This document shows, in pieces, positions 532-45,412 of a stretch of DNA of 46,282 bases; positions within the stretch are counted from its first letter, which is position 1, and every line of letters begins with the position of its first letter. Under the pieces are notes generated by a model that was not told where the DNA came from, ran no database searches, and was given only the letters and a program-made list of their open reading frames with translations. The stretch is from a virus. The translations under genes and the position numbers were made by a program. Location: positions 1 through 46,282 of the IMG/VR virus record IMGVR_UViG_3300012210_000010; one strand, 5' to 3'.

Positions 532-1509
532 ATGAGCAAGATCCGATATGAGATGCGGTCGTTCACCCCCGCCGGACTGGCGGTCGTGCAGGCCGCCGAC
601 GCTATCTGCGACCAGTATGCGGACCAGGGGCTGCGGCTGACGCTGCGCCAGCTCTACTACCGGTTCATCGCCACCGACGCGTTCCCCGATGAGCGCTACT
701 TCACCGCTGGCAAGCGGACCCCCGGCAACCCGGACGGCACCGGCACCAAGAACTGCCAGCAGAATTACAAGTGGCTCGGCGACCTGATCGCCGACGGCCG
801 TGTCTCCGGCCTCGTCGACTGGGACCACATCGAGGACCGCGGCCGGGCGTCGGCCGGTGGCGACTTCGGATGGTCCAGCCCCGAGCGTGCGGTCAACTCG
901 ATCGCGCAGCAGTACGGCATCACCCACTGGGACGGCCAGCCCGAGCACGTGGAGGCCTGGGTGGAGAAGGACGCGCTGGTCGACGTCATCGCCCGTGCGG
1001 CGGCGCCGCTGGACGTCAGCTACACCGCGTGCAAGGGCTCGCCCTCGCACTCGCTGATCCACGACGCCGCCCTGCGGCTGAAGAGGTTCGAGCGGGACAG
1101 CGTGAAGACCCGGATCCTGTACCTGGGCGACCACGACCCGACCGGGCTCGACATCCCCCGGGACATCCAGGAGCGGCTGGCACTGTTCGGCAGCCGGTGC
1201 TACGTCGAGCGCATCGCGCTGACGATGGACCAGGTTGAGCAGTACAACCCGCCGCCCAACTACGCCAAGGCCACCGACAGCCGGTTCGACGGCTACGTCG
1301 AGCAGTACGGTACCGACTGCTGGGAGCTGGACGCGCTGGAGCCCCAGGTGCTGACCGACCTGGTGGACGGGAAGATCCGCGAGCACCTGGACGACGACCT
1401 GCGCCAGGTGCGTCTAGACCGCGAAGGACGAGAGCGGGTGGAGTTGGACGCCATCGCGGACAATTACGCCATGGTCAGGGAGCACCTGGTCGAACAGGGT
1501 GCCCTGTAA
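532..1509 (+). CDS. Spo11/topoisomerase VI subunit A-like Toprim protein
   Basis: A 325-residue protein with the order expected for topoisomerase VI-A/Spo11 relatives. Near residues 36-47 is LTLRQLYYRFIA, similar to the winged-helix segment that carries the catalytic Tyr (candidates Y42 or Y43). A Toprim-like fold follows, with a conserved Glu in VEAWVEKDAL (E145) and a DxD pair in LYLGDHDPTG (D200, D202), the usual Mg2+ ligands. The C-terminal part has a PPPNYAKATDSR segment. In the known family subunit A cuts DNA through a tyrosyl link and works with a GHKL ATPase subunit B. No such partner is visible here, so it may be a nuclease or a stand-alone DNA-processing enzyme. Start chosen by the AGGGAAG sequence upstream of ATG. 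The domain call is good, the reaction is inferred. Confidence 0.8.
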   Translation: MSKIRYEMRSFTPAGLAVVQAADAICDQYADQGLRLTLRQLYYRFIATDAFPDERYFTAGKRTPGNPDGTGTKNCQQNYKWLGDLIADGRVSGLVDWDHIEDRGRASAGGDFGWSSPERAVNSIAQQYGITHWDGQPEHVEAWVEKDALVDVIARAAAPLDVSYTACKGSPSHSLIHDAALRLKRFERDSVKTRILYLGDHDPTGLDIPRDIQERLALFGSRCYVERIALTMDQVEQYNPPPNYAKATDSRFDGYVEQYGTDCWELDALEPQVLTDLVDGKIREHLDDDLRQVRLDREGRERVELDAIADNYAMVREHLVEQGAL

Positions 1510-2953: not shown

Positions 2954-5641
2954 TCAGTACACCTGCTGGACGCCCGCGAAGACCTTGGGGATCTCCGGTG
3001 ACCCCTGGATCTGCGACCACACGTCGTAGCTCTGTCCGGCCGTCAGCGTCAGCATGCCACCCGGGCCCACCAGGCACTGAGCGACCCACCCCTTGACGGT
3101 GGTGGACGGCAGCCAACTGGCTGCATACCAGGTCACCGGCTGGGCTGGCGCGTTCAGATTGCCACTGGAGACCGGGAACGCCATCTGCACGACGAGCGGC
3201 AGGACCGTCGGGTCGACGACCGTACCGGCCAGGTCTGACGTCCACAGGATGTTGATCTCCTGCAGGCTGATCGAGGCGATCGGCGTGAAACCGGCCACGA
3301 GCACCGCCTTCCATCTCGCGCTGGCGGGCTTGGCAGCCCACCGCTGGGTCGCCTTTATTGTCCATCTGCCCGCAACAGGCTCGGCTGCCCATCGCGTGCG
3401 CTGCGCCGCCGTCTGCCATCTGCGCGGCAGTGCACCGGCTCGCCACGTCACCGTGCCGGTGAAGCCCGGCGCCGGAACGAACAGGGTGTCGACCCCGGTA
3501 CCGACGTCGGCGACGTGGAGGGCAATCACAACGGTGTCGGCCGCGGTACCGGCGTCTCCGAGCAGCACTGTGGCCGCGGGGATCGCCATGACGTCGGCTC
3601 CGGCGCCCGAGACCACGAATGCGACTGCAGGTGTGAGTGCGTCCGCGGCCGATCCCGCATCGGTAAGAGGAACCGACAGGGCGAGTGCGTCGGCGGCACT
3701 GCCCGCGTCGGGAAGCAGGAACGCGATCACAACGGCGTCCGAGCCGACGCCGGTGTCCGTGACTCCGAACATGACCGCAGTCGCGTCCGCCCCGGTGCCG
3801 CCGTCCGACAGCCCTATGGCGGCAACGAGCGCGTCCGACGCCGTGCCCGTGTCAGGCAGCAGGACCGTGGCCGCGAGGCCGTCAGAACCGGCTCCGGTGT
3901 CCGTCATCTGCACCACGACGGCCGAGGCGTCTGATCCCGTGCCCGTGTCGGACAGCGGGACCGCGGCGACGACCGTGAGCGAGTCGGAGCCTGCGCCCGC
4001 GTCCGCCAGGGCGACCGGCGTGCCGATCACGAGCGTGTCGAGGCCGGTGCCCGAGTCGAGGAGCAGGACGGTGACCGCGGGAGCGTCGGATCCCGCGCCG
4101 ACGTCGGACAGGGCGACGGCGGTCAGGAAGGTGTCGGCGCCTGCGCCGGAGTCCGACAGCTTGGGCGAGACCGCGAGAGCGTCCGACGCGGTGCCCGAGT
4201 CGGCCGCCGCGATGCCGATGACGACCGTGTCTGCGGCCGAGCCCGTGTCGGACAGCGGCACTGTGGCGGTCACCGAGGCTGTGTCCGAGCCGGTGCCGCT
4301 GTCCGTCAGGGGGATCGTAACCGACAGCGCATCGGAGCCCGTACCGGAGTCGGACAGTGCCACGGTGATCGAGGCGGTGAGTGAGTCGGCGCCGGTTCCA
4401 CTGTCCGCCAGGCCGATCGCGATGACGATCGTGTTGGACGCGGTGCCCGAGTCAGCCAAGGGCACCACAAGCGCTGTGAGGCTGTCTGAGCCGGTTCCTG
4501 AGTCAGGCAGAGCGGGAGCGGCTGAGACCGCGTCAGCGCCTGTGCCAGCGTCGGCTAGAGGCACTGTGATGACAAGCGTGTCCGACCCGGCGCCGGTGTC
4601 CGGCAGCGGGATCGTTGCGACCACGGTGAGTGTGTCGCTCCCGGCGCCGGTATCGGCGATCAGGATCGTGAAGGCGGACGTGTCCGCGGCCGTGCCGGAG
4701 TCTGCGAGGGGCACCGACAGAGCGAGTGCGTCGGCGGCGGTACCGGAGTCGGTGAACGCTACCGCCGGGGTGAGGGAGTCCGTTCCCGCGCCGGTGTCGA
4801 CAACGGCGGTCGCGAGTGCGAGGCTGTCCGCTCCGGCACCCGTGTCTGCCAGCGGCACTGCGACTGCGAGAGCGTCCGATCCTGCGCCGGAGTCCGTCAG
4901 GGAGACCGCGACCACGGGGATGGACGACGACAGCGGCTGTGCGGGACGCCGCCGCGCCGACGGTCCGGTGATCCGCAGTACGGGGCGCTGCGGCATCTGC
5001 GCGGGTACCAGAGCGAGGTGGTCGGACACCATGATGGCAATCGAGTTCGATATGCCAGCCGTCTGGGTCATCGTCGGGGACACGGACCCCGTGACCGCCA
5101 CGTTGTACATCTCGGGGTTGCCGTTGGCGTCGCTGTTCGCCACGAATCCGGAGGGCAGCGGCGTGCCCGCGCTGCCCGGAACACGGGAGTGGCCCCAGTA
5201 GAGCTCGCCGTTCACGGTGTCGATCGACGGCGCCAGCGTGGGGAAGCTGACAGTGGTCGATGATGCATTGGACAGGGTGCCGAAACCGTCTGGAGTCCAG
5301 ACGGGACTGGCCAGTGTCGAGTGGAACGGATGGGCATCGATGTCCATGGCGATGCCGGTGACGCTGCCCGAGTAGGTGAAGGTGATCGTCTGGGCACCGG
5401 TGGCGTTCATGGTGCCGATCCAGACCGACTCGTTCGCCGTGCCGGTGCCGTCCAGCCAGTTCCCTGTTACGTCAACCCACCCCGTGGCGCCTCCGCCGGA
5501 GACTCCCGTGGTGGTGATACTCGCGCTCTTGACGACTATGAAGACAACCCAGAGGTCGTTCACCGCAGTCGCGGTTACGGCCTGGGTCGTGAGAGCGGTT
5601 CCAGTGGAGGTGGCGAAGGCCGCGGCGGATGAGATGGTCAT
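2954..5641 (-). CDS. Tail fibre protein with 29 tandem DxG repeats
   Basis: An 895-residue tail-associated protein in four parts. Residues 1-215 form a beta-rich head domain (Thr, Ser, Val, Gly; no signal peptide). Residues 243-724 are about 29 tandem repeats of mostly 16 residues with the core D-S/T-G-x-x-x-D-x-L and a preceding P/A-L pair, such as PLADTGAGADSLALAT; some units are 18-19 long. Residues 725-780 carry spaced Arg-Trp pairs. The final 110 residues form a separate beta-rich tip. The hydrophobic/turn periodicity suggests a trimeric beta-solenoid or beta-spiral shaft, and the regular Asp residues could bind Ca2+; both are inference. Its place among tail genes supports a fibre or receptor-binding role. 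The repeats also create a long open frame on the other strand. Confidence 0.85.
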   Translation of the reverse strand: MTISSAAAFATSTGTALTTQAVTATAVNDLWVVFIVVKSASITTTGVSGGGATGWVDVTGNWLDGTGTANESVWIGTMNATGAQTITFTYSGSVTGIAMDIDAHPFHSTLASPVWTPDGFGTLSNASSTTVSFPTLAPSIDTVNGELYWGHSRVPGSAGTPLPSGFVANSDANGNPEMYNVAVTGSVSPTMTQTAGISNSIAIMVSDHLALVPAQMPQRPVLRITGPSARRRPAQPLSSSIPVVAVSLTDSGAGSDALAVAVPLADTGAGADSLALATAVVDTGAGTDSLTPAVAFTDSGTAADALALSVPLADSGTAADTSAFTILIADTGAGSDTLTVVATIPLPDTGAGSDTLVITVPLADAGTGADAVSAAPALPDSGTGSDSLTALVVPLADSGTASNTIVIAIGLADSGTGADSLTASITVALSDSGTGSDALSVTIPLTDSGTGSDTASVTATVPLSDTGSAADTVVIGIAAADSGTASDALAVSPKLSDSGAGADTFLTAVALSDVGAGSDAPAVTVLLLDSGTGLDTLVIGTPVALADAGAGSDSLTVVAAVPLSDTGTGSDASAVVVQMTDTGAGSDGLAATVLLPDTGTASDALVAAIGLSDGGTGADATAVMFGVTDTGVGSDAVVIAFLLPDAGSAADALALSVPLTDAGSAADALTPAVAFVVSGAGADVMAIPAATVLLGDAGTAADTVVIALHVADVGTGVDTLFVPAPGFTGTVTWRAGALPRRWQTAAQRTRWAAEPVAGRWTIKATQRWAAKPASARWKAVLVAGFTPIASISLQEINILWTSDLAGTVVDPTVLPLVVQMAFPVSSGNLNAPAQPVTWYAASWLPSTTVKGWVAQCLVGPGGMLTLTAGQSYDVWSQIQGSPEIPKVFAGVQQVY
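3470..4915 (-). repeat. Tandem protein-coding repeat array, about 29 units of 48-57 bases
   Basis: The array encodes residues 243-724 of the tail fibre. Units are diverged at DNA level but keep the D-G-D spacing. Most are 48 bases; six longer ones of 54-57 bases are scattered through the array. Units near the middle are most alike (DSGTGSD), while those at the C-terminal end have substitutions (VVSGAGAD, ADVGTGVD). It is a coding array, not CRISPR. Confidence 0.9.
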
Positions 5642-5661: not shown

Positions 5662-6240
5662 TCAGTTGAGTCCGTAGACGAGGAACTCCAGCAGCTGGAT
5701 CGAGTTAGAGGCCGAGGAGGCGGAGCACGCCACGTTGAAGTTGAGGAAGTTCTGAATCGTCGGGTCGAACGTCGAGAACGAGCCGGGCTGCGCCGCGCCG
5801 CCCCACAGTTCGTAGGTGAAGGGGGAGGCCAGTCCGGCCGGACAGGTGATCATCCCAGCGCCGGTGCCCGAGCTCGCCGCTCCGGATCCGGACGGGTCCT
5901 TGAAGATGATGCTGCCCTCGAACTCCCAGCCCTTGTTCGTGATCGTCGTCGCGGTCGTCAGCGCCGCCGATCCGAGGAGGATCGCGGCCGTGATGTTGCC
6001 GATCGTGCCCGATCTGAGGGTGAGCGTGTACGTCGGGGTGCCGGTGCTCGACAGGATGCCGCGCGCTTCGATCCGCAGGCCCTTGCGCGAGTAGTTGACG
6101 AATCCCTGAGGCAGGAAGGCCGCCGGACCGCCGCCGGTCTGGTCGTCGATCGTCACCTCGGTGGTGAAGGTGTTCTTCGCCGTGAACGCCGTGTCGTTCG
6201 CGTAGATCAGTTCGCAGTTCGTGCCGGTCAGGAAGGACAT
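5662..6240 (-). CDS. Virion-associated beta-sandwich protein, probably tail
   Basis: A 192-residue protein made of alternating beta-strand-like segments rich in Thr, Ser, Gly and Ile. It shows a pattern seen in many actinophage tail-region proteins: an opening TGTNCELIYAN strand, FLPQGFVNYSRKGLRIEARGI, then TPTYTLTLR and a final hydrophobic strand. No catalytic motif, membrane segment or metal site is visible. It sits between the repeat fibre and another small tail protein, spaced by 20 and 12 bases, so it is likely a structural or fibre-attachment component. The exact role is unknown. Confidence 0.75.
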   Translation of the reverse strand: MSFLTGTNCELIYANDTAFTAKNTFTTEVTIDDQTGGGPAAFLPQGFVNYSRKGLRIEARGILSSTGTPTYTLTLRSGTIGNITAAILLGSAALTTATTITNKGWEFEGSIIFKDPSGSGAASSGTGAGMITCPAGLASPFTYELWGGAAQPGSFSTFDPTIQNFLNFNVACSASSASNSIQLLEFLVYGLN

Positions 6241-6595: not shown

Positions 6596-7279
6596 CTACG
6601 TGAAGCTCAGCGTGACCGTGACGGTCCAGGTCGTGCTCGCGCCCTTGGTGCCGGGCGTGGCCAGGCCGTGGTTGACCATGTCGGCGGTCGCGGTCACGGT
6701 GTTCGAGACCGCGGTCGCGGTGCCGGAGTCGACGGCGAACTCCTGCCAGGCGGCGCCGGTCCCGTAGGCGGAGGTGAAGCTCGATGTGAAGGCGACGGTG
6801 GCCGGGGCCGCGGTGTCGACGATCGTCGGCGCCGCGCCGCACAGCACCCAGTTGCCGGTGCCGGTCAGGCTCGTGATCGCGGTCAGAGCGGTGTCGCCGT
6901 ACGCCGGGGTCGTCGAGCCGGTGCCGATGCCGATCCGGCCGACCGAGGCTGTGAACTGCGTGGTGTGCGTGCCGCCGTTCCAGTTGGCCGCCAGCAGGCA
7001 GTGGTCCCACCCGGCCTTGGTGATCAGGTTGCAGTCGTCCTTGGTGTACACCTCGGACGGTTCGACGCCGAACTGCCGGAACTTCGCCCGGGGCAGCTGC
7101 AGTCCGGGCACGTCCTCCAGCTTGACCGCGCCCAGATGTCCGAAGAGCTTGCGGGCGACCCAGTGACTCTGGTCGGCGTCCCACTTCTGAATCTGGATGC
7201 TGCCCGTCTCCCGGCCGCCATCCGTCAGTACGGCGCCGATACCCATCGCATCGCCCGCCAGGCCTCGGTCAGTCGCCAT
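6596..7279 (-). CDS. Tail-associated structural protein
   Basis: A 227-residue protein. Its first half is mixed and contains KWDADQSHWVARKLFGHLG and GWDHCLLAANWNGG; the second half is a Thr/Ala/Gly-rich beta domain ending in a TWTVTVTLSF strand. The segment SVGRIGIGTGSTTPAYGDTA is typical of a virion protein type found repeatedly in actinophage tail modules. No enzyme motif is seen. GAGGAGG stands upstream of the ATG. A 60-base gap separates it from the next upstream gene; apart from the ribosome binding site I see no promoter or hairpin there. Structural role inferred from composition and position. Confidence 0.75.
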   Translation of the reverse strand: MATDRGLAGDAMGIGAVLTDGGRETGSIQIQKWDADQSHWVARKLFGHLGAVKLEDVPGLQLPRAKFRQFGVEPSEVYTKDDCNLITKAGWDHCLLAANWNGGTHTTQFTASVGRIGIGTGSTTPAYGDTALTAITSLTGTGNWVLCGAAPTIVDTAAPATVAFTSSFTSAYGTGAAWQEFAVDSGTATAVSNTVTATADMVNHGLATPGTKGASTTWTVTVTLSFT

Positions 7280-13200: not shown

Positions 13201-14612
13201 GGCACCGAGCCTCCTATCATCTTGAAAGCATTGCGCCAGGACACCGTGCAGCGCGAGGTCCCGGTCAGATCCTGGGACGAGTAGGTGACCGGCACCGACG
13301 CCCCGCCCGGAACCATCAGGGAGTCCAGCGAGTTGCCGCGCACGACTCCGGCCAGCGACGCGGCGACCGGGGTAGCTCCGTACGGATCGGCTCCGATCGA
13401 GCTAGTGACGCCAACGTACCGGTTCCACGGCACGGTGGAGATCACCGCCGTCTGGTTCGCCGCCAGGCTGGTCTGCAGCAGCAGAGAGACCGAGTTCCCC
13501 TGATAGATGATCGACGGATTGGTGCACGGTCCCGTGATCGTGATGACCGGCCAGGTGTCCGTGGTGCCGGAGTTCAGGATCGCGTTGCCGTAGTAGACAC
13601 CCTGCGTCACGACGACCGTGTCCACGTAGAAGCTGACGGCGCCGCTCGCCGCGTAGCTGACGGACAGAGCCAGCCAGGCCGCACCGGTCGGGGCGGCCTG
13701 CAGACCGCTGATCTGTACCCCGGTGCTGCCCGTGGTGGCCGTCGCCGTGCCGAAGGTGACCGGCGACCCGATGTTCGCCAGCGCTCCGTTGAGCCACTGC
13801 CCGGTCAGCGTGGCCGTGCCGCTGCCCGAGCTGACCCGCACGCGCATGGCGGCTTCGTAGGACAGCCCCGCGACCACCGACAGGTTCGCGTACTTGACCG
13901 ACGCGGTGCCCGCCCCGGTGATAGCCGCCTTCATCGAGTACGTGCCGATCGCGGCCCAGTCGGTCGACTGGCCGAGGGAGGAGATCAGCGTCTGCGCGAC
14001 CCAGTTGCCGGTCCACGGCAGCTCGAAGTCGGAGTCGGCCGCGGGCACCATGTTGTTCGCCGTCTGAACCGCGGCCAGTGCCACCGGCGGGGTGAGCGGA
14101 GGGGCCACGCCGCCGCCGGAGAACGCGAAGGCGGTGCCCAGGGTGAAGGAGTTGAGCACGTCCCCGTAGAACGTGTTGTCGGCGCAGTCGAAGTCGGCGG
14201 TGAACGGCACATAGCCCTGATTCACCATGCCGAGCACCGGAGCGCAGTTGCGGCCCCGGCCGTAGACCCGCCGGGTGACGGAGCTGCCCCGATAGAACAT
14301 CCGCAGGACACTGATCGCGCCGGGGGTCCATCGGACGGTCTTCTTCTCCCAGGCCGCGGCGAACGCGTCGTACGCGTCCATCTGCGCCAGTCCGGTGTCG
14401 CCCTGGCGGAACGCCTGTCCGGTGAAGGAGATGGCCATGCCGGGCAGCACGTCGAAGCCGAACCGGCGCCCGTCGTTGTTGACCAGCTGGACATCCTGCG
14501 CGATCGAATTGCCGGGGCTGATCGCCGTCTTGGCGATCGAGACGGACTGACCGGCTCCGAACACCAGGCCGTCGATGGAGTACTGGCCCGAGCTGAGGAT
14601 CGGATCGCTCAC
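13197..14612 (-). CDS. Distal tail (Dit)-like protein
   Basis: A 471-residue protein starting at GTG 14612, which overlaps the tape-measure stop by four bases (GTGA). A longer in-frame extension to 15161 exists but lies inside the tape-measure gene and is rejected. Residues 1-150 have a Dit-like pattern: IDGLVFGAGQSVSIAKTAI, then FGFDVLPGMAISFTGQAF and a W-x-P-G strand. Residues about 190-335 look like an inserted carbohydrate-binding domain (SDFELPWTGNWV, then TYSMKAAITG), as in evolved Dit proteins. The remainder returns to the Dit fold. Dit forms the hexameric hub at the tail tip. Position directly behind the tape measure agrees. Confidence 0.8.
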   Translation of the reverse strand: MSDPILSSGQYSIDGLVFGAGQSVSIAKTAISPGNSIAQDVQLVNNDGRRFGFDVLPGMAISFTGQAFRQGDTGLAQMDAYDAFAAAWEKKTVRWTPGAISVLRMFYRGSSVTRRVYGRGRNCAPVLGMVNQGYVPFTADFDCADNTFYGDVLNSFTLGTAFAFSGGGVAPPLTPPVALAAVQTANNMVPAADSDFELPWTGNWVAQTLISSLGQSTDWAAIGTYSMKAAITGAGTASVKYANLSVVAGLSYEAAMRVRVSSGSGTATLTGQWLNGALANIGSPVTFGTATATTGSTGVQISGLQAAPTGAAWLALSVSYAASGAVSFYVDTVVVTQGVYYGNAILNSGTTDTWPVITITGPCTNPSIIYQGNSVSLLLQTSLAANQTAVISTVPWNRYVGVTSSIGADPYGATPVAASLAGVVRGNSLDSLMVPGGASVPVTYSSQDLTGTSRCTVSWRNAFKMIGGSVP

Positions 14613-17600
14613 TGTCCCACCACCGTCGCCTGCAGCGCCGTCATGCGCAGTGTGCTGGTCAGCTCGCGCAGGGCGTAGGCGGTGTCCCCGGTGCCGTAGT
14701 AGGCCGTCTGGTACGTGCCGATCATCGGGCGCTCGTTGCGGACCGCCGCGATGAGCTGTCCGAGGACTCCGGCCATCCCGCCGCCGCCGCGCGCTCCGTA
14801 GGACGCCAGCGGTGTGACGCTGACCGCCTCGGGTCCGCGCTCGCCGACGCCGATCACGGTCGGGTGGCTGAAGATCGCATCGAGCCCGCCGCCGTACCAG
14901 TTGAAGGCCTTCTCGTGCGACGCCGCTCCGGCCGGGCCGCCGTACCGGCCCAGCATGTACTGGACCATCCACCAGATCTGCACGGCGGGATCGGAGCTGC
15001 CACCGGCGAACGGCGGCTGGCCCATCTTCGGGTACTTGGTATACGGCAGCGCCTGCGCGATGCCGTACGCGCCGGAGGACGGGTTCATCGCGGTGTTGGA
15101 CCAGCCGCTCTCCCGCATCGCGACGTAGTTCCAGTTGATCCAGTTCTGCCCGGTCGCCCACGCGGGGTACAGCACCCTCGCCAGCGCCGCGTTCGCCGCC
15201 ACTCCGCCACCGCTGCCGACTCCCGGGCCGACACCGCTGCCGCCGCCGCCTCCCAGGACGCCCAGGGCGTAGCTCATGGCGGTGCTTACGATCTTCTTCG
15301 GGATCAGGGTGAACATCTTGGCCAGGTCGCCGGTCGTGTTCGAGTCGACGCCGACCAGCTTGAGAAGCTCGCCGGACAGGGCTCCCAGACTGCCCGTTGC
15401 GATGGACGAGAGGATGCTGCCGACGACTCCGCCGGTCGCGTAACCGGGAACGCCCACGGCCGCGAACAACGGTGCGAGCATGCGCGAGTGGGCGGCCGAC
15501 ACGACGGTCTCGCCGCGGCTGGCGCGGATCAGCACGTCGTCGGCGGTCGGTCCGGTGCCGGACGTGATCATTCCGCCTGCAGCCAGCGGTTGGACGTATG
15601 GCAGCTTGGGCCCGCCGATCGCACCCATCACGTCGTTCCAGAACCGCTCGATCCCGTTGTCGTACACGGTCTTGATCAGGAAGTTGATCGGGTCCTTGAA
15701 GATCTGTTCGATCTTGCCCCAGGCGGTCTTGATCGCGGACACGCCCGTGTCGAACCAGCTCGGCACGGTCTTGGTGATGAAGTGCATGATCTTCACGCCG
15801 AAGTCATCCCAGAACCACCGGCCGAAATCGAGTCCGACCTGTTTGATGTCACCCCAGATCTGAGCCCAGTGCTTGTAGAGCTCGATGGCGCCCAGGGCGA
15901 TCAGGCCGACCGGCCCGAGCAGCGGCAGCAGGAACTTGCCGAAGCCGTTGTAGATGAAGTTCCAGGCGTCCGCAGCCCAGGCCTTGATGTCACCCCAGAC
16001 CTGCTTCCAGTGCACGACCAGCAGGGTGATCGCCCCGACCAGGCCGACGATCGCGATCACGACCAGCCCGATGGGGTTGGCCGCCAGGGCGAGGTTGAAC
16101 AGCCAGACCCCGGCGGTCACGGCGGCGATCAGCGGCACCAGCCAGGGCATCTTGGTCAGCAGCCAGGTGATCCCCTCCAGGATGGAGGTCAGCCCGGCGG
16201 CCAGCAGGGTGACCAAGATCGTGGCGAACTGCGATATCAGAGTGATGATCACGGGCAGTATCGGAGCCAGCTGCTGCAGAAGCAGATTGATCAAGGCACC
16301 CAGCGGCTTGACGATCGCCTCCAGGGCGTTGCCGATCACGGCGAACACCCCGCTGTTCTCCAGTACGACAAAGGCCTGCGACAGTACGTCCGCGAAGATC
16401 TTCAGTCCGGGCGCGATGTTGGTCAGCAGCTGGGCCAGGGCGGTGAACGCGGATACAAGATCACCCAGGATGGCGCCCGCCAGGGAGGCCAGCACCTTTC
16501 CGACGATGGCCAGGAACGGCAGCAGGGACTTGATCGTTCCGGCGAAGGCGGAGAACACAGGGGCCAGCGCCGAGGCGAAGATCGCTGCCAGCTGGCCGAT
16601 GATCGGGAACAGGGCGGACAGGACGGACAGGAGTGAATTCAGGACAATAGCGCTAGCCTTGATCACTGGTGCGAAGGCTGTGAACATCTGCCCGAGCCCC
16701 TTGCCGATGATCGACAGCCCTCCGAACAGGGCGTTTACCGCTGGCTGCGCTCCCTTCAGCAGCGTGATCAAGCCGGGGAGCAGTCCGGAGATCAGGCCGC
16801 CGAGTCCGTCGAGCATGGGGCGCATCAGCGGCGCGACGGCGGCGAACGCCTGGCCGAGCAGCGGCAGGATCTGCTGTGCTACGTCGCCGAGTCCTTGTAT
16901 AAAGGGCTGGACAAGCTTGGTCGCGTTGCCGAAGAAGCCCTGGAGCGCGGGCTGCAGCCGCTGGAACACGCTGGCCACCGAGGACATGGCCCCGGCGAAC
17001 AGCGGTGCGAACGAGGCGGTGAAACTCTGCCAGGTGTTCTGGATCTGCTGCTCGGAGTTGTAGATGGAGCGCATGGCCGGGCTGAGGGCGGCCAGGGAGA
17101 CCGCGAGCTGCTTCTGCTCTCCGGCAATCGTCTTGGCGCCCGCGGCGGTCGAGCCGAGCCCGGCGGCCTGCTGCGCCTGGATCTGGCTGGACAGCCCGCT
17201 GGCCGGTGCGATCTGGGACTGGATGCCCTTGAACAGAGCCGCGCTGGCTCCGATCCCGATCCCGCCGATGCCGAGAGCGCCCAGGCCCGCGAACGTGGCG
17301 GGTAGCGCGCCGAGCAGCGACCCGCCCCCCGCGATGATCCCGGTGGCCTTCGCCCCGATGCCGAGGATCCCCGGACCGATCCCGCCCGCCAGGCCCTTGG
17401 CGAAACCACCCCCGGACCGGTCTCCGGCCAGTGCCTTCTGCAGCAGTGACGTCTGCTGCTTGGAGTTGTCCGCCATGTCCTTGGCGGCCTTCGTCTGCGC
17501 TGCGGCGGCGGCCATGGCAGCCTTGTCGGACGCCCCGCCGCCGCCCGTGATCCGGCCGAGGATCCCGGACAGGAAACCGCCGCCGCCGAAGATGCCGCCG

Positions 17601-17998
17601 CCCGCGTTGCCGCCTCCTGGACCACCGGCGGTACCGCCACCGCCTCCGCCGGGTGTGGCGAACATCTTGCCGAGCAGACCCTGCTGCCCGGCCTGCTGGG
17701 CGGTCGGAGAGCCCGTTACCGGGTGCGGGGAGAACAGCGCGTTGAGTGAGCCGAGCACAGACCCCTGCGGACTGGTGCGCAGCCGCATCGACGCGTCCCG
17801 GGAGACCTGCTGGTCCAGGTCGGCGAACATCTTGCGGGCCCGGGTCATCGAGGCCGTGTCGAAGACGGCGGATACCTTGACCTCGTGCGTGCCCGCCTCG
17901 ATCTTGCGGACACGCGCCTCGGCCTTGTCCAGGTCGCGGTTGAACTGTTCGAGGCGGACGGTCAGGGAGGCTTCGATGCTGCCAGCGTCGAACGACAT
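14609..17998 (-). CDS. Tape measure protein with lytic transglycosylase domain
   Basis: The longest gene, 1129 residues. The N-terminus is a charged helix (SLTVRLEQFNRDLDKAEARV), followed by Gly/Ala-rich linkers and several long hydrophobic stretches between residues 200 and 700, typical of tape measures that fill the tail tube. Residues 937-1035 form an SLT lytic transglycosylase domain: NYVAMRESGW with catalytic Glu963, then NPSSGAYGIAQALP. That domain would cut peptidoglycan during DNA entry. GERGPEAV motifs follow. Tape-measure length sets tail length; by the usual rule of about 0.15 nm per residue the tail would be near 170 nm. The start overlaps the chaperone stop by one base (TGATG). 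Confidence 0.95.
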   Translation of the reverse strand: MSFDAGSIEASLTVRLEQFNRDLDKAEARVRKIEAGTHEVKVSAVFDTASMTRARKMFADLDQQVSRDASMRLRTSPQGSVLGSLNALFSPHPVTGSPTAQQAGQQGLLGKMFATPGGGGGGTAGGPGGGNAGGGIFGGGGFLSGILGRITGGGGASDKAAMAAAAAQTKAAKDMADNSKQQTSLLQKALAGDRSGGGFAKGLAGGIGPGILGIGAKATGIIAGGGSLLGALPATFAGLGALGIGGIGIGASAALFKGIQSQIAPASGLSSQIQAQQAAGLGSTAAGAKTIAGEQKQLAVSLAALSPAMRSIYNSEQQIQNTWQSFTASFAPLFAGAMSSVASVFQRLQPALQGFFGNATKLVQPFIQGLGDVAQQILPLLGQAFAAVAPLMRPMLDGLGGLISGLLPGLITLLKGAQPAVNALFGGLSIIGKGLGQMFTAFAPVIKASAIVLNSLLSVLSALFPIIGQLAAIFASALAPVFSAFAGTIKSLLPFLAIVGKVLASLAGAILGDLVSAFTALAQLLTNIAPGLKIFADVLSQAFVVLENSGVFAVIGNALEAIVKPLGALINLLLQQLAPILPVIITLISQFATILVTLLAAGLTSILEGITWLLTKMPWLVPLIAAVTAGVWLFNLALAANPIGLVVIAIVGLVGAITLLVVHWKQVWGDIKAWAADAWNFIYNGFGKFLLPLLGPVGLIALGAIELYKHWAQIWGDIKQVGLDFGRWFWDDFGVKIMHFITKTVPSWFDTGVSAIKTAWGKIEQIFKDPINFLIKTVYDNGIERFWNDVMGAIGGPKLPYVQPLAAGGMITSGTGPTADDVLIRASRGETVVSAAHSRMLAPLFAAVGVPGYATGGVVGSILSSIATGSLGALSGELLKLVGVDSNTTGDLAKMFTLIPKKIVSTAMSYALGVLGGGGGSGVGPGVGSGGGVAANAALARVLYPAWATGQNWINWNYVAMRESGWSNTAMNPSSGAYGIAQALPYTKYPKMGQPPFAGGSSDPAVQIWWMVQYMLGRYGGPAGAASHEKAFNWYGGGLDAIFSHPTVIGVGERGPEAVSVTPLASYGARGGGGMAGVLGQLIAAVRNERPMIGTYQTAYYGTGDTAYALRELTSTLRMTALQATVVGQ

Positions 17999-27640: not shown

Positions 27641-27761
27641 GTGGCCTATCCTCCCGTGCGCGCTTGCGCAGAGATCGTCTCTGGGGGCATGGTACCGCCT
27701 GGCAGGCAAGACAGCACCTGCCTCTCATGAGCTCGTTGATCCGGAGGGACGCCGAGGCGGT
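27641..27761 (-). promoter_or_regulatory. Short non-coding stretch with two hairpins
   Basis: If the coding frame of the preceding gene ends at 27762 (see that entry), this is one of the longer gaps in the head module. It holds an inverted repeat at 27669-27683 (CAGAGA, three-base loop, TCTCTG) and another at 27701-27722 (GGCAGG/CCTGCC, ten-base loop). The GGAGG ribosome binding site of the next gene is at the left end. No T-run follows, so a terminator is not clear. I see no obvious promoter. Confidence 0.35.
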
Positions 27762-29340
27762 CTACCAGTTCTCGACGCCAGTCGTTTCGCCGCTCTCCGG
27801 CGAGGTCGATTCGGGCTGCCTGCTCCGTAATTCCCGAGCCAGCTGCAGGGCCGCGGCCTTCCGCTCGGGCTCGGGCATATCGGCGTAGCCAGGAGGGATG
27901 CTCAGAAACTCCCGGCGAGGAGTGCTCGGTGACGCCGCCGCCTGTTCCGCCTGTGTCAATTTCCTGACCTCCTGCCACATCCCAGATAGCGAGCTGGTCC
28001 CGGCTCTTGCCCGCGCCGATCGCCTCGGTGCGATCGGCGATGTTCTCCGACGGGTCCAACCACAGCTTACCGTCGCTGACCCATCCGCCGAGGTGGACGC
28101 CGGGTCGCTTGAAGGCCTCCCGCTCGGACATCAGGAACTTGTCGATGGCGTCGGCAAGCTGCTTCTCGTCCTTCATGATCGTGTCGGGGTACTGGTGCGT
28201 GTGGCCCGGCAACGCGACCATGAATCCTCCGGTCGGCGCCTTCCCCGTTTTCGGATCGAGCGAGAAGCCCATCGGGTCGACGTGCGGAGCCATCACGCCG
28301 CCGGACGTGGACCACCGGCCGTGCGCGTCCCGGAGTTGGTCCTCCCAGCCGAAGTCCAACTCCATCGACAGCGCCGTGGTGCCGGACGCCGTGGCGATGT
28401 TCTGCTGCTGCGCGTGTGCGATCCAGGTCTTCCACGCGTTGGCGGTGCGGGTGCCCCGGCCCTTCGCCATCCCCTTCAACTTCGGGTCCGTGACGGCGGC
28501 GTCCTGGGCCTCGTTCGCCTGTTGCTGGACCAGCCAGGTGATCGCCTGCATCTGGCTTGGTGTGATCGTACGGCCCTCGCGCTTGCTGGCCTCGATCGCT
28601 GCCTTGCGGTACTCGTCGGCTACCACCTGGTAGTACCGGTCATCGCCGATCGGTGGCTTGTCCTTGTCGCTGAGCCGTTCACCGGCCGCCACGGACAGGG
28701 CGTGCCGGTCGATCACCACCTCGCCGTACGGGTCGTTCGGGTCGTCCTGCCCCTTGTTCTCGATCAGCCGGGCGAAGGCGTTGGTCTTGGGCGCTGGCAG
28801 CGCCTCGTCGAAGCTCTTGCCGTCGAAGATCTTCTGAGCGGCGTTGGCGTGCGACTGCATCACGGTCGCGCCCTCGTGCGGGCCGATAGGACGGCCGAGT
28901 TCGACCGAGCGCGCGGCGTTGAACATGTTGACCGGCCATGACGTCTGCGGCGAGTAGGCCGAGAGCAGCCCGGCGCCCTTGTACTGGTCTCCATGCGCGA
29001 TGGCACCGGCCACCAGCCCGGCGTCGGCGTACCAGCGCATGCCCTGCTCCTTCTGCCCCTCGTTGGCCATCGAGTAGGCGTGCAGGACGTTGGCGGCCTT
29101 CATCGGGTGTTCCTTGAAGAACGGATGGTCGGCCGGGTCGGGGATCGGCGAGCGCGGGTTGATCAGCCTGCTGTGCGGCGGCACCTGATAGTCGACGCTG
29201 CCGCCCTGGACGTGCGGAGACGGCGACGCTTCTCCAGCGCCTCGGACCCACTGGCCGTGCGCGCCGCGCATCTCGTGCATCCAGGCGTCCTGCCAGCTGC
29301 CCAGCTCGACGGCCTGGCGGCTGATCGAGTCACCGGACAT
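27646..29340 (-). CDS. Large head-associated protein with RDAHGRW modules
   Basis: A 564-residue frame from the ATG at 29340. Residues 20-34 (MHEMRGAHGQWVRG) and about 335-350 (QLRDAHGRWSTSGG) are copies of a short module also found in the next two upstream genes. Residues 60-300 are helical with WYADAGLVAGAIAHGDQY and VIDRHALSVAAGERL; residues 350-480 have PGHTHQYPDTIMKDEKQLAD and end near QLAIWDVAGGQEID. Beyond about residue 470 this frame turns Arg/Pro-rich and unlike a protein, while the +1 frame gives a sensible 72-residue sequence; the true C-terminus may be there. Functions of these head proteins are unknown; MuF-type or internal proteins are the closest analogy. Confidence 0.65.
   Translation of the reverse strand: MSGDSISRQAVELGSWQDAWMHEMRGAHGQWVRGAGEASPSPHVQGGSVDYQVPPHSRLINPRSPIPDPADHPFFKEHPMKAANVLHAYSMANEGQKEQGMRWYADAGLVAGAIAHGDQYKGAGLLSAYSPQTSWPVNMFNAARSVELGRPIGPHEGATVMQSHANAAQKIFDGKSFDEALPAPKTNAFARLIENKGQDDPNDPYGEVVIDRHALSVAAGERLSDKDKPPIGDDRYYQVVADEYRKAAIEASKREGRTITPSQMQAITWLVQQQANEAQDAAVTDPKLKGMAKGRGTRTANAWKTWIAHAQQQNIATASGTTALSMELDFGWEDQLRDAHGRWSTSGGVMAPHVDPMGFSLDPKTGKAPTGGFMVALPGHTHQYPDTIMKDEKQLADAIDKFLMSEREAFKRPGVHLGGWVSDGKLWLDPSENIADRTEAIGAGKSRDQLAIWDVAGGQEIDTGGTGGGVTEHSSPGVSEHPSWLRRYARARAEGRGPAAGSGITEQAARIDLAGERRNDWRRELVDRLGVPPDQRAHERQVLSCLPGGTMPPETISAQARTGG
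27762..27980 (-). CDS. Alternative +1-frame C-terminus or small separate protein
   Basis: A 72-residue frame inside the 3' end of the preceding gene. Its later part (FLSIPPGYADMPEPERKAAA, LQLARELRSRQ) is protein-like, with high GC at third codon positions, and ends TTGVENW, whereas the overlapping frame there looks random. It is +1 relative to the upstream gene. Either the two are joined by a frameshift or a sequencing indel, or this is a separate gene starting at the ATG at 27980, which lacks a good ribosome binding site. Unresolved. Confidence 0.4.
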   Translation of the reverse strand: MWQEVRKLTQAEQAAASPSTPRREFLSIPPGYADMPEPERKAAALQLARELRSRQPESTSPESGETTGVENW

Positions 29341-31270
29341 GATCGAGCTGCCCGGAGATGTTGTCGCTGTTCGCCGCAGCCGACAGGCGCCAGCCGTCGA
29401 CCTGCACCCACTGCTGGACCATCGCCGCAGCGGTCTGGTTCGCCATCTCGGGGGTGAGGCCTCCCTTGACCAGGCCCTGGACTACCAGGGTGTGCACCTT
29501 CCCGAGCACGGTACCGGCATCGGAGGACATCTGGATGGGGATTTTCTGAGCCTTGGCCGCAGTCACCGCACCGTGTGCCGCGCCCTTGATGATGCCGATC
29601 GCACCCTTGGTGACCTGCACCGGGAATGCAAACGCCTTCATACCCCGGCCTCGGCCGATGACATGGAACTCGGCCAGCTCGGAGGCGATGAGCGGGAACG
29701 TAGTCGTCGCCAGGATCCCCACCAGCGGCATGGCCATCCCGGCGGTGAGCGCTGCGGCTATCACGCCGACGGCGATGAATCCGAGGTGGACCGCCAGCGT
29801 CGCCCTCGGCTCGGTCCGCTCCTGCTTCACGGCCTCCTGCTTCAGCTCTTCGATCTCCTCCATCGCCTTGCCGATCTCGATGTCGGTGTACACCCGGGAG
29901 TGGATGGCGGCCCTCGCGACCGCCTGCAGCGATGCCGGGTTACCGGCCAGGGGCGTGCTGCTCTGCGCTGGCTCGGGGAGCCTGGATGGCACGGCGGCGG
30001 GGCTGGGCGCTGCGGGTGCCTGCTCCGCCGGTACCCGCGTCGGCCTGCCCACCGTGGCCGCGCTGTACGTCCGCGTGAACCGGCCGTGCGCGTCCCGGGG
30101 CTGGTGCTTCCAGCTGTCATGCGCCAGGTCCAGTGCTTGTCCGGAGATGGTCGACAGATCCTGCTCCCCGTCCATCAGCTCCCTGAGCCACTTGGCTTCG
30201 GCCGGGTAGTTGTCGAGGACGTGCTGGGTGAGCTTCTGCGCGTGCTCGTAGGTGCCCTGCAGATGCTTCTCGGCGTGGTCGGCGTCGAACTGCCAACACG
30301 CGTCGTCCGTGTCGTTGAGCATCGCTTCGGTGTGCCGCTGGGCGTGCGCGGCGTCGTACAGGATCGTCTGGAGCAGGTGCGCGAACGAGGACGCCTTGGC
30401 CGCCGGGCTCACCGACTTCGCCAGGTCCATCACCCGCTGGTCACTGATGCACATCTGCACATCGCCACCGCCGAGCGGGAACCGGACCACGTCCTTGCCG
30501 CGATGCACCGACAGATGTGTGATGATCACCGGGGTCTGTGGCACCGGGGCCGGGAACGGCTCGCCGGGCTTCACGTACGCCAGGGTGACGTGCGACTTCC
30601 AGTCCTTGTGTTCACTGGCCGACAGGTCCGCCAGTCCTTGGCGGATCGAGTCCGCCCCGGGCAGGTCGACACCGGCCCACACGGGCATCCCGTCGCTACC
30701 CGGCGGGAACGATCCGATCCCGCCGACCGATCCCTTCAACGGGCCGGGAACCGCAGCCGCCGCCTTCTGCGCCCGGTCGCACGCCTCGGCTAACGCGTCG
30801 TCGTCCACGTCGGGCCCGAGGTACACCACCGTGATGTGGTGGTCGTCCACGCCGCCGGGAACGGGAGCGATAGTGCCGGACGGCAGGTCGAGGGAGATCA
30901 TGCCGGAACGCGGATTCAGCTTGTACCCGGTGGCCATCCCGATCTCGTTCGCCAGGTTCATCACCCGCGCCAGCATCCGCCACTCGTCCGACTCGGCCGG
31001 GTAGTGCGCCAGCATGTTCTCCTTCAGCTGGTTCGCCTGGTCCAGAGTGATGTTGATGTGGTTGGCGAGGTGCAGGTTGTTGTAGTGCCGCAGCTCTCCG
31101 CCGGTGCTGCACATGACCTTCATGCGTTCCTTGGCGTGCGCCAGCTCGTCTGCGATGTCGTTGATCCGGTGCGCGGTGAACATCGCCACCGCGGTCGGGT
31201 TGTCCGGGACCGGCGGCAGCTTGTGCAGCTGGCCGCTGATGCTCGTACCCGCCTCGCCCGGCCCGGTCAC
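29330..31270 (-). CDS. Head protein with 2H phosphoesterase domain
   Basis: A 646-residue protein from GTG 31270 (GTGA overlap). Residues 140-270 are a 2H phosphoesterase (2'-5' RNA ligase-like): DDHHITVVYLG with H145-x-T147 and SHVTLAYV with H227-x-T229, separated by the usual distance. The family cleaves or opens 2',3'-cyclic phosphates or related RNA/ADP-ribose bonds. Residues 290-400 are helical, with His/Asp-rich pairs. A PRDAHGRFTR module occurs near residue 405. Residues 490-530 form two hydrophobic helices, so the protein may contact membranes. A related gene type sits near MuF proteins in actinophages. Overlap with the next gene is 11 bases. Confidence 0.8.
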   Translation of the reverse strand: MTGPGEAGTSISGQLHKLPPVPDNPTAVAMFTAHRINDIADELAHAKERMKVMCSTGGELRHYNNLHLANHINITLDQANQLKENMLAHYPAESDEWRMLARVMNLANEIGMATGYKLNPRSGMISLDLPSGTIAPVPGGVDDHHITVVYLGPDVDDDALAEACDRAQKAAAAVPGPLKGSVGGIGSFPPGSDGMPVWAGVDLPGADSIRQGLADLSASEHKDWKSHVTLAYVKPGEPFPAPVPQTPVIITHLSVHRGKDVVRFPLGGGDVQMCISDQRVMDLAKSVSPAAKASSFAHLLQTILYDAAHAQRHTEAMLNDTDDACWQFDADHAEKHLQGTYEHAQKLTQHVLDNYPAEAKWLRELMDGEQDLSTISGQALDLAHDSWKHQPRDAHGRFTRTYSAATVGRPTRVPAEQAPAAPSPAAVPSRLPEPAQSSTPLAGNPASLQAVARAAIHSRVYTDIEIGKAMEEIEELKQEAVKQERTEPRATLAVHLGFIAVGVIAAALTAGMAMPLVGILATTTFPLIASELAEFHVIGRGRGMKAFAFPVQVTKGAIGIIKGAAHGAVTAAKAQKIPIQMSSDAGTVLGKVHTLVVQGLVKGGLTPEMANQTAAAMVQQWVQVDGWRLSAAANSDNISGQLDHVR

Positions 31271-33099
31271 AGCGCTGCCGCCTGCTTGGTCAGTGCCGCC
31301 GCCTGCGCGAGCGCGCCCTTGATCGCCTGCCTCAGCCATCCGACCTGCTGCGCCTTGCTCATTCCAGCCGTCTTGGCCTTGAACGTGGAATGCGCGATGG
31401 TAGCCGGGGTCTTCGCCGCCACGGTCTTCTTCGCCGGAGTGCTGGACGCCGTCTTGCCCGTCGACCCGGCCTTAGTCGCGGCGGCCGTCGCCGCCTTGGT
31501 CGCCTTGGCCGCCGCAGCCGCCGCCGTCTGCTTTTTGGCGGTGGTCTTCTTCGCGGTCGTGAGCGCCGCGAGCATCTTCGTGTACGCAACGGCCATCGCC
31601 CTGAGCTGGGCGGCCTGAGCCAGCAGGGCCTGCTTCTTCGCGGCCTTCTGCTGGGGACTCATCTGCGCGGCGCCCGCCGCCGCGCCTCCGGAACCAAACT
31701 GGCCGTTGACGGCCCTGGGATCCAGGGCCGCCCCGGCCGCGGTGCCGACCAGCTCGACCACGCCAGCCCACGAATCGGCGGTGTGTTCCTGCTGGCTGGC
31801 CTGTCGGATCGCCATGCCCGGATTGCGGTACGGCAGACCGACACGCTTGCCGTTGACCACTGCGTAGTGCAGTCCGCCGACCTTCTCGGTCGTGACCGTG
31901 CTCGGCTTCGACGGGCCGGGACGCTTGCCGACACGCCCCGAGAGCTCGGCGCCGTGTGAATCAATGACCTGCTGCGCATGGGCCGTGGCACGCTGCGGGG
32001 TCTGGAACTCGTGCGCGTCACCCTTGATCGGCTGGCCGTTGATCGTGGCCACGTGCACCGTGCCGCCGCCGTACTGGGGGTCGACGGCGCGCTCAGCCGA
32101 TCCTGCCTGCCACTTGCCGTGGGAGTCGCGCATTTCAGCCGCGGCCCCCACCAGCTCCACTACTCCCGCCCACGAATCCGCGGTGTGGCCGTGGACGGCC
32201 TTCGCGCGTGCCTGCCGGGTCAGCTCCCCGCCTTCAGCCGCCGCGCTCGCTGCGCGCACCTCGGGGTGCACCTTGCCGCCGCCGGACGACCAGCGGCGGA
32301 TCGCACCGCGGGCGATGGCGTACGCCTTGCCGGGGTCCATCCCACGCTTGCGGATCAGCGCCTTGACGATTTGCTGGAGGTAGGCGGTGTGGCCCATGCC
32401 CTCGACGTCGTACAGACCGGGACCGCCCGGCCGCCCGCGCGGGGCTGGTGTGGCCGCCAGTCGGGCCGTCTGCGCGGACAGCTCGATCATCCGATCGATG
32501 TCGTCCCAGGACAGCACCGCCTGCGGCATCGGACGTCCCGGCAGCTGGCGCTCCTTCCCGCTCGGCGCCTTCGGGCCACCGGCCATCGCCCGATCGGTGC
32601 CGGTGTTCTGCGCCGGGGCGGGCACCATCGCGGCGCGCACCGTCTTGGGCACGCCGGGTCCGCCGTCGGGACCGGCGGCGCCGGGGAGCTTCAGAGGGTT
32701 CATGGAATCACCCATCGGCAGGTTGCCCGGCTGGGTGAAGGTGGCCGGTGTGGCGCGCAGACCTTGGTTGTGCGCCTCGCCGTCCTCCAGGTCACTGACC
32801 AGCATGTGGTGCCGGTTGATCAGGTCCATGTTGACCTTGGCCTTGGCGTGGCCGTCGTCGTCGAGGATGCCGTGGCGCATCAGCGACAGCGGAGCCATGG
32901 TGTGCATCGCGGCTTGCAGGTGGCGCTTCGCGCCCGTGTGGTTGCCGGACTCCAGCGCGCGCGCCGCGTCGCGCAGGTGCTGCGGCGCGGCCATGCCGGG
33001 AAGCTCCTCGTCGATCTTCCCTGCCAGGGCGCGCATGCCGCTGGCGGTGCGCTCCTTCATCTGGGACAGAGGGACCGCGTTCTTGCGCGCGAACGTCAT
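31267..33099 (-). CDS. Large head-associated protein with histone-like tail
   Basis: A 610-residue protein. N-terminal 100 residues are helical and His/Met-rich (PQHLRDAARALESGNHTGAK). Around residue 250 comes YLQQIVKALIRKRGMDPGKA followed by AIRRWSSGGGKVHPE, a motif found in actinophage head-assembly proteins. Two copies of HTADSWAGVVELVG follow (near residues 305 and 440), one before a MRDSHGKW module. Residues 515-576 are a Lys/Ala/Thr-rich, acid-free tail (13 Lys) like histone H1 or bacterial histone-like tails, probably binding DNA. Located between the MuF-like and 2H genes; perhaps an internal head protein packed with DNA. Confidence 0.75.
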   Translation of the reverse strand: MTFARKNAVPLSQMKERTASGMRALAGKIDEELPGMAAPQHLRDAARALESGNHTGAKRHLQAAMHTMAPLSLMRHGILDDDGHAKAKVNMDLINRHHMLVSDLEDGEAHNQGLRATPATFTQPGNLPMGDSMNPLKLPGAAGPDGGPGVPKTVRAAMVPAPAQNTGTDRAMAGGPKAPSGKERQLPGRPMPQAVLSWDDIDRMIELSAQTARLAATPAPRGRPGGPGLYDVEGMGHTAYLQQIVKALIRKRGMDPGKAYAIARGAIRRWSSGGGKVHPEVRAASAAAEGGELTRQARAKAVHGHTADSWAGVVELVGAAAEMRDSHGKWQAGSAERAVDPQYGGGTVHVATINGQPIKGDAHEFQTPQRATAHAQQVIDSHGAELSGRVGKRPGPSKPSTVTTEKVGGLHYAVVNGKRVGLPYRNPGMAIRQASQQEHTADSWAGVVELVGTAAGAALDPRAVNGQFGSGGAAAGAAQMSPQQKAAKKQALLAQAAQLRAMAVAYTKMLAALTTAKKTTAKKQTAAAAAAKATKAATAAATKAGSTGKTASSTPAKKTVAAKTPATIAHSTFKAKTAGMSKAQQVGWLRQAIKGALAQAAALTKQAAAL

Positions 33100-42382: not shown

Positions 42383-42400
42383 GCCACCAGGCACGACGAA

Positions 42401-42422
42401 GGCCCGGACCGTAGTCCGGGCC
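42401..42422 (-). terminator. Strong hairpin terminator
   Basis: A perfect 9-base-pair stem (GGCCCGGAC/GTCCGGGCC) with a 4-base loop lies 17 bases beyond the stop of the gene at 42439. On the minus strand it is followed by TTCGTCG rather than a T-run, as often in high-GC phages. It separates the small-gene unit at 42.4-44.8 kb from the lysis cassette. The same stem would work on either strand. Confidence 0.65.
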
Positions 42423-42438
42423 TCGCTGGTATCCATCC

Positions 42439-45385: not shown

Positions 45386-45404
45386 CTTCTGATGACAACT
45401 ATAC
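45386..45404 (-). promoter_or_regulatory. Putative promoter/operator element, copy 2
   Basis: On the minus strand it reads GTATAGTTGTCATCAGAAG. TATAGT is the best -10 match of the three copies, and TTGTCATCAG is identical to copy 1. It lies 26 bases upstream of the ATG at 45359 in the 53-base gap 45360-45412. The nearest -35 candidates (TGTGAC at 16 bases or GTGTGA at 17) are weak. Confidence 0.55.
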
Positions 45405-45412
45405 CCGGTCCG

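Follow-up and report, generated by a model that had tools for sequence, protein, structure and literature searches.

A tail-module gene of an uncultured phage encodes a 29-unit repeat array ahead of a conserved C-terminal domain with a putative internal start

Genome context and organization of the repeat gene

The window, which is the whole stretch of 46,282 nucleotides that was analyzed, is a fragment of an uncultured phage with 68% G+C and was identical, over the stretches tested, to a 71.9-kb IMG/VR contig (G001). The contig coordinates imply a circularly permuted genome of approximately 71.7 kb, and the G+C content and the relatives of this phage suggest that its host is probably actinobacterial. 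The strand that carries the repeat gene also carries the terminase, portal, major head, tape measure, Dit-like and minor tail genes. The repeat gene is located between minor tail genes and a gene for a holin-family membrane protein, and its neighbors match tail PHROGs, indicating that it is encoded within the tail module. A preliminary description had named its product a tail fiber, which is likely given this location, an assignment made by gene position only. The features of the locus are as follows.

2954 to 5641, minus strand: full-length open reading frame (895 aa), with an N-terminal beta-rich domain, 29 repeats, an RW-motif linker and a C-terminal domain
4907 to 5641, minus strand: N-terminal domain (approximately residues 1-245), proposed adhesin head, swapped in L004 and others
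3461 to 4894, minus strand: array of 29 D-x-G-x-[GA]-x-D units with a period of mainly 16, in some units 18 (repeat scan and AlphaFold2)
3299 to 3460, minus strand: R-W motif linker, TWRAG..RRW..RW..RW..RW..RWK (from sequence; fused relatives keep the same kind)
3307 to 3316, minus strand: Shine-Dalgarno (SD)-like AGATGGAAGG within the open reading frame, coding for the last R-W-K motif
3296 to 3298, minus strand: putative internal start GTG at residue 782, 8 nt past the SD-like element
2954 to 3298, minus strand: C-terminal domain, proposed to dock on the virion and putatively a separate product; 114 aa when counted from the internal start
5662 to 6240, minus strand: upstream neighbor of 192 aa, missing from the compact locus L005
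6253 to 6582, minus strand: upstream neighbor of 109 aa; in L005 it lies immediately 5' of the gene for the C-terminal domain alone
6596 to 7279, minus strand: upstream neighbor of 227 aa with a weak match to a tail-fiber PHROG

The preliminary description was silent on the strand, the flanking domains and the internal start. No Pfam family was matched by the window protein at E ≤ 1, N-terminal domain included, and a PDB search with the whole protein returned just two weak matches, both to designed proteins. A long antisense open reading frame (3093 to 5201, plus strand) was judged to be a by-product of the codon pattern.

Several other features of the window were also observed. A 325-aa protein encoded on the strand opposite the structural genes (532 to 1509, plus strand) strongly matches a DNA topoisomerase PHROG (E 2e-85) and has no Pfam match. 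Between the portal and major head genes, a 669-aa protein (29330 to 31339, minus strand) shows weak matches to 2'-5' RNA ligase and LigT phosphoesterase. A 564-aa protein (27646 to 29340, minus strand) contains a DUF7178 domain (E 1e-36). The tape measure protein (14609 to 17998, minus strand) has PHROG transglycosylase matches near its C-terminus, at residues ~946-1035. Sequences of 22-26 bases at 45386 to 45411 and 42399 to 42424, which are single copies in the window, recur in G001 at 38066, 46931 and 26570; the latter, AAGGCCCGGACCGTAGTCCGGGCCTC, is an inverted repeat and may be a terminator.

The repeat array is old and nearly fixed in length

A dynamic-programming scan of the 895-aa open reading frame identified 29 units on the minus strand, extending from the first Asp at residue 250 (window 4894) to approximately residue 727 (window 3461). 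The chain score was 249, compared to 11.5 ± 3.6 in residue shuffles (maximum 24.5, n=300), which confirms the tandem array of about 29 units that had been proposed. Among the 28 spacings between units, 21 are 16 residues long and five are 18, with one each of 17 and 19. The previously described D-S/T-G-x-x-x-D-x-L core was slightly too strict; while the D, G and D residues are near-invariant (D1 in 27/28, G3 in 28/28 and D/N7 in 28/28 units), S or T is found at position 2 in 20/28 units and Leu at position 9 in 16/28. Position 5 is G or A in 28/28 units, hydrophobic residues alternate at positions 9, 11, 13 and 15, and the array consists nearly entirely of A, T, G, D, V, L, S, P and I. Across 15 repeat proteins, 190 unit spacings were even and 25 odd; mostly even unit lengths are expected if a beta strand lengthens by residue pairs.

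DNA identity between units averages 56% and Tandem Repeats Finder did not call an array at the repeat region, both indicating that the array is old. Two full-length relatives, L003 (57% identical) and L004 (52% identical), carry 29 and 32 units, respectively; L004 combines an array and C-terminus of this kind with an N-terminal domain that is either unrelated or has diverged strongly. When units were compared to those of the window by position, protein identity was 0.485 versus 0.380 after permutation for L003 (z 6.1) and 0.502 versus 0.417 for L004 (z 4.6). Moreover, long units coincide at 5 positions (p=0.0013), and in the comparison with L003 the array has a dN of 0.42 and a dS of 1.02. Units that are orthologous by position, together with counts of 29, 29 and 32, indicate that each unit has been inherited in place, with a single indel of three units. 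The array is therefore an old, stable spacer of nearly fixed length, with divergence conserved by position, and variation in unit number that tunes fiber length, as had been suggested, was not seen among these close relatives. In distant relatives, both array length and repeat type differ.

The repeats are predicted to form a periodic beta-structured spacer

A single-chain AlphaFold2 model of 10 units (mean pLDDT 76, pTM 0.69) predicted one strand of 11 residues per unit, running from D7 to the next D1, and a 5-residue loop. The same pattern was found in the full-length model, the strands spanning 11-13 residues across the two models, with pLDDT values of 70-82 over most of the array; the head and C-terminal domains were modeled with low confidence (mostly <60), with strands predicted in the head. 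These models support a periodic beta-structured spacer, and the earlier proposal that the regular spacing reflects a periodic beta shaft agrees with a strand per unit in both models, with the even unit lengths and with arrays of the same type in minor tail proteins of mycobacteriophages.

The repeats could alternatively be a disordered low-complexity linker without a defined fold, a state that the preliminary description had named as evidence against its own proposal. The composition of almost only nine residue types is compatible with such a linker, as is the outcome of a Foldseek search of the repeat model against PDB and BFVD, which found nothing at E ≤ 0.001; the top PDB rows were the functional amyloids FapC and CsgA and beta-solenoids, with probabilities ≤0.10 and low TM-scores, and were taken as uninformative. 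By comparison, the even periodicity and alternating hydrophobic residues, the repeat-region pLDDT of mostly 70-82 in two models, and unit-by-unit conservation with dN below dS make disorder improbable.

A calcium-stabilized beta-roll of the RTX type, which had also been suggested, is improbable as well. Aspartate pairs surround a Gly-rich loop in every unit, and G-x-G-x-D-x-L resembles part of the RTX nonapeptide. However, the RTX family PF00353 (GGxGxDxUx nonapeptides) was not matched by the window protein at E ≤ 1, the best RTX structure in the fold search was non-significant (E=2.0), and the units have a period of 16 or 18 with one strand of 11-13 residues each; in addition, the repeat types of L013 to L018, found at the same place in related proteins (see below), lack paired aspartates.

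Phage fibers are usually trimers, and this, along with even spacing and alternating hydrophobic residues that fit a beta shaft, could be taken to favor a triple beta-spiral, as previously suggested, or another obligate trimeric shaft. The adenovirus-shaft family was not matched in Pfam, and whereas the 15-residue spiral repeat has two short strands, the single-chain models show one long strand in each 16- or 18-residue unit. A trimeric shaft of this kind is considered unlikely.

A conserved C-terminal domain is combined with different heads and repeats

Searching IMG/VR with the C-terminal domain identified 14 loci, the window's own genome included, with 51-100% identity. No relatives of this domain were found in 84,980 bacterial and archaeal genomes, nothing significant was found in annotated phages, and the domain had no match in Pfam (E ≤ 5) or PDB (E ≤ 1) and no convincing PHROG relative. 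At 13 of the 14 loci the domain is fused, and around the conserved ~114 aa both heads and repeat types are exchanged. The N-terminal domain is a DUF4082 domain in L017 and L018, and the repeats in the fused relatives have a similar period (16-20 aa) and belong to several sequence types. D-S-G-T-G-S-D repeats are found in the window, L003 and L004 and, interrupted, in L011; A-G-T-A-S-x-x-S-x-A-S-G-x-L repeats in L013; L-S-G-T-G-T-L repeats in L014 to L018; and D-V-A-G-A-V-D repeats in L019 and L060. L058 is fused without such an array. Alignment of head domains among relatives was too weak for a claim of homology, and BLAST gave no matches for the L014-type repeat, a result made uninformative by the low-complexity filter. 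In L018 (3096 to 5417), a GFSKSG sequence between DUF4082 and the repeats resembles a hydrolase nucleophile elbow, possibly that of an enzyme in the fiber head.

The remaining locus, L005/L012, encodes the C-terminal domain by itself, as a standalone gene. The 5.4 kb upstream of this gene are 79% identical to the window, and the 38.9-kb contig, which is possibly incomplete, carries neither a head nor an array. From its conservation and position, we infer that the C-terminal domain may dock the protein on the virion. An exchanged N-terminal part and a conserved C-terminal part suggest an order with the head at the N-terminus and the dock at the C-terminus, which is opposite to the order in many phage fibers.

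A Shine-Dalgarno-like sequence and an in-frame start precede the C-terminal domain

The last R-W-K/R motif before the C-terminal domain is encoded as AGATGGAAGG (window 3307 to 3316) or a close variant. An SD-like sequence precedes the C-terminal domain in all 14 loci, and each has an in-frame start at the corresponding place (ATG in 9, GTG in 4 and TTG in 1), located 2-5 codons ahead of an F/Y-x-P-I/V motif. Among 43 in-frame candidates in the window, the GTG has the strongest predicted anti-SD pairing (-11.5 kcal/mol), a value that falls inside the range for gene starts of the window. The Arg of the last RW motif is encoded by AGA or AGG in 12 of 14 loci versus 42 of 223 other Arg codons (Fisher p=4e-7), SD strength exceeds that after synonymous-codon randomization (combined p=3e-6, with mostly modest per-sequence values of 0.002-0.35), and the chance of four Val encoded as GTG plus one Leu as TTG is ~5e-4; all of these tests count related sequences as if they were independent and therefore overstate significance. 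In L018, where R-W has turned into R-G, GGGAGG and the rare TTG start are nonetheless kept. The internal SD-like sequence and start are hence conserved at the codon level, suggesting that the C-terminal domain is probably also made alone from the putative internal start.

The main rival to this interpretation is that a once-separate C-terminal gene was fused to an upstream fiber gene, leaving an old ribosome binding site and start that are unused, so that only the long fiber is made. The standalone gene of L005/L012 fits fusion as the origin of the gene, but the retention of the SD-like sequence and start in 14/14 loci, down to ~51% protein identity and including L018, makes an unused relic rather unlikely. 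A virion gene family in which each frame specifies two proteins, i.e., a long fiber with an exchangeable head, an exchangeable beta-repeat spacer and a dock, and the dock alone, with the SD in the R-W-K/R codons, is given a chance somewhat short of even. If true, such a two-protein gene would set the ratio of fiber-bearing to bare docking subunits.

Comparison with known phage systems

A three-unit DNA pattern was found in 26 stretches in IMG/VR, cultured mycobacteriophages among them, not all of the same type and some representing unrelated low-complexity matches. Sbash gp21 and its relatives (192 records, mostly annotated as minor tail proteins) resemble the window protein in having tandem D-x-G-x-G-x-D units at 16-19 aa and a location in the tail module ahead of the lysis genes; with tandem units at 16-18 aa in the tail module, the window gene shares the arrangement of these actinophage tail proteins. 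By contrast, the gp21-type proteins have just ~5-7 units, which precede a Gly-rich domain, and lack the window-type C-terminal domain. Orf64 of Rhodococcus phage REQ1, a hypothetical protein, has ~10-12 related units after a Gly-rich N-terminal domain (PF21722), but it has a different C-terminus and its gene adjoins the large terminase gene. Short tails unlike that of the window protein were observed in the repeat proteins of L027, L040, L047 and L006 (REQ1), and L040 and REQ1 have a common Arg-rich tail with repeated R-x-I/V-x-V motifs.

The location of REQ1 Orf64 beside a terminase gene, and not among tail genes, would be compatible with a fiber that decorates the head or the tail tube instead of the tail tip, which the place of the window gene after the tail genes would also allow. 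As repeats of the same type in mycobacteriophages are in minor tail proteins encoded within the tail module, a decoration fiber is seen as doubtful.

In phage endolysins, an in-frame internal start with its own ribosome binding site has been shown experimentally to yield the C-terminal domain alone along with the full-length protein (PMC9430671). The same arrangement is predicted for the window gene, with an internal ribosome binding site and in-frame start conserved in 14/14 loci; the endolysins are, however, lysis enzymes and not virion proteins. In SPP1, a single gene supplies one virion subunit, that of the tail tube, in two forms, plain and decorated. A +1 frameshift adds a C-terminal domain to gp17.1 to give gp17.1*, with a plain to decorated ratio of 3:1 (PMC6316719), whereas internal initiation in the window gene would drop the N-terminal part. 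In mycobacteriophages such as Douge, BppU baseplate accessory proteins join a ring domain of ~100 residues to a carbohydrate-binding module (PMC13033339), but their ring domain is N-terminal, which reverses the order, and no BppU-type match to the C-terminal domain was found by sequence or profile.

A modular fiber model and its implications

Taking these observations together, the favored explanation, with a probability of roughly 0.55, is a siphovirus-type modular adhesion fiber with an exchangeable N-terminal head, a beta spacer and a C-terminal dock that is also made alone. The N-terminal domain would be the host-facing head, held off the virion by the 29 repeats, a beta-structured spacer whose length hardly varies, and the ~114-aa C-terminal domain would be the dock that attaches the fiber to the virion, probably close to the tail tip. 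Through the SD-like AGATGGAAGG and the GTG that follows, the gene may give two products, the full-length fiber and the docking domain alone. Free docking domains could then dilute the fiber-bearing ones, so that the docking ring or complex would consist of many short subunits, only some of which carry a fiber.

The repeat spacer itself is ordinary; a fiber gene built from cassettes with a probable second start is of more interest. In uncultured phages, which probably infect actinobacteria, a single conserved dock may be fitted with different receptor-facing domains and different spacers, each exchanged as a cassette of its own, and one gene could mix bare and fiber-bearing virion subunits. The repeat family is common to many cultured mycobacteriophages, in which its structure and function could therefore be tested.
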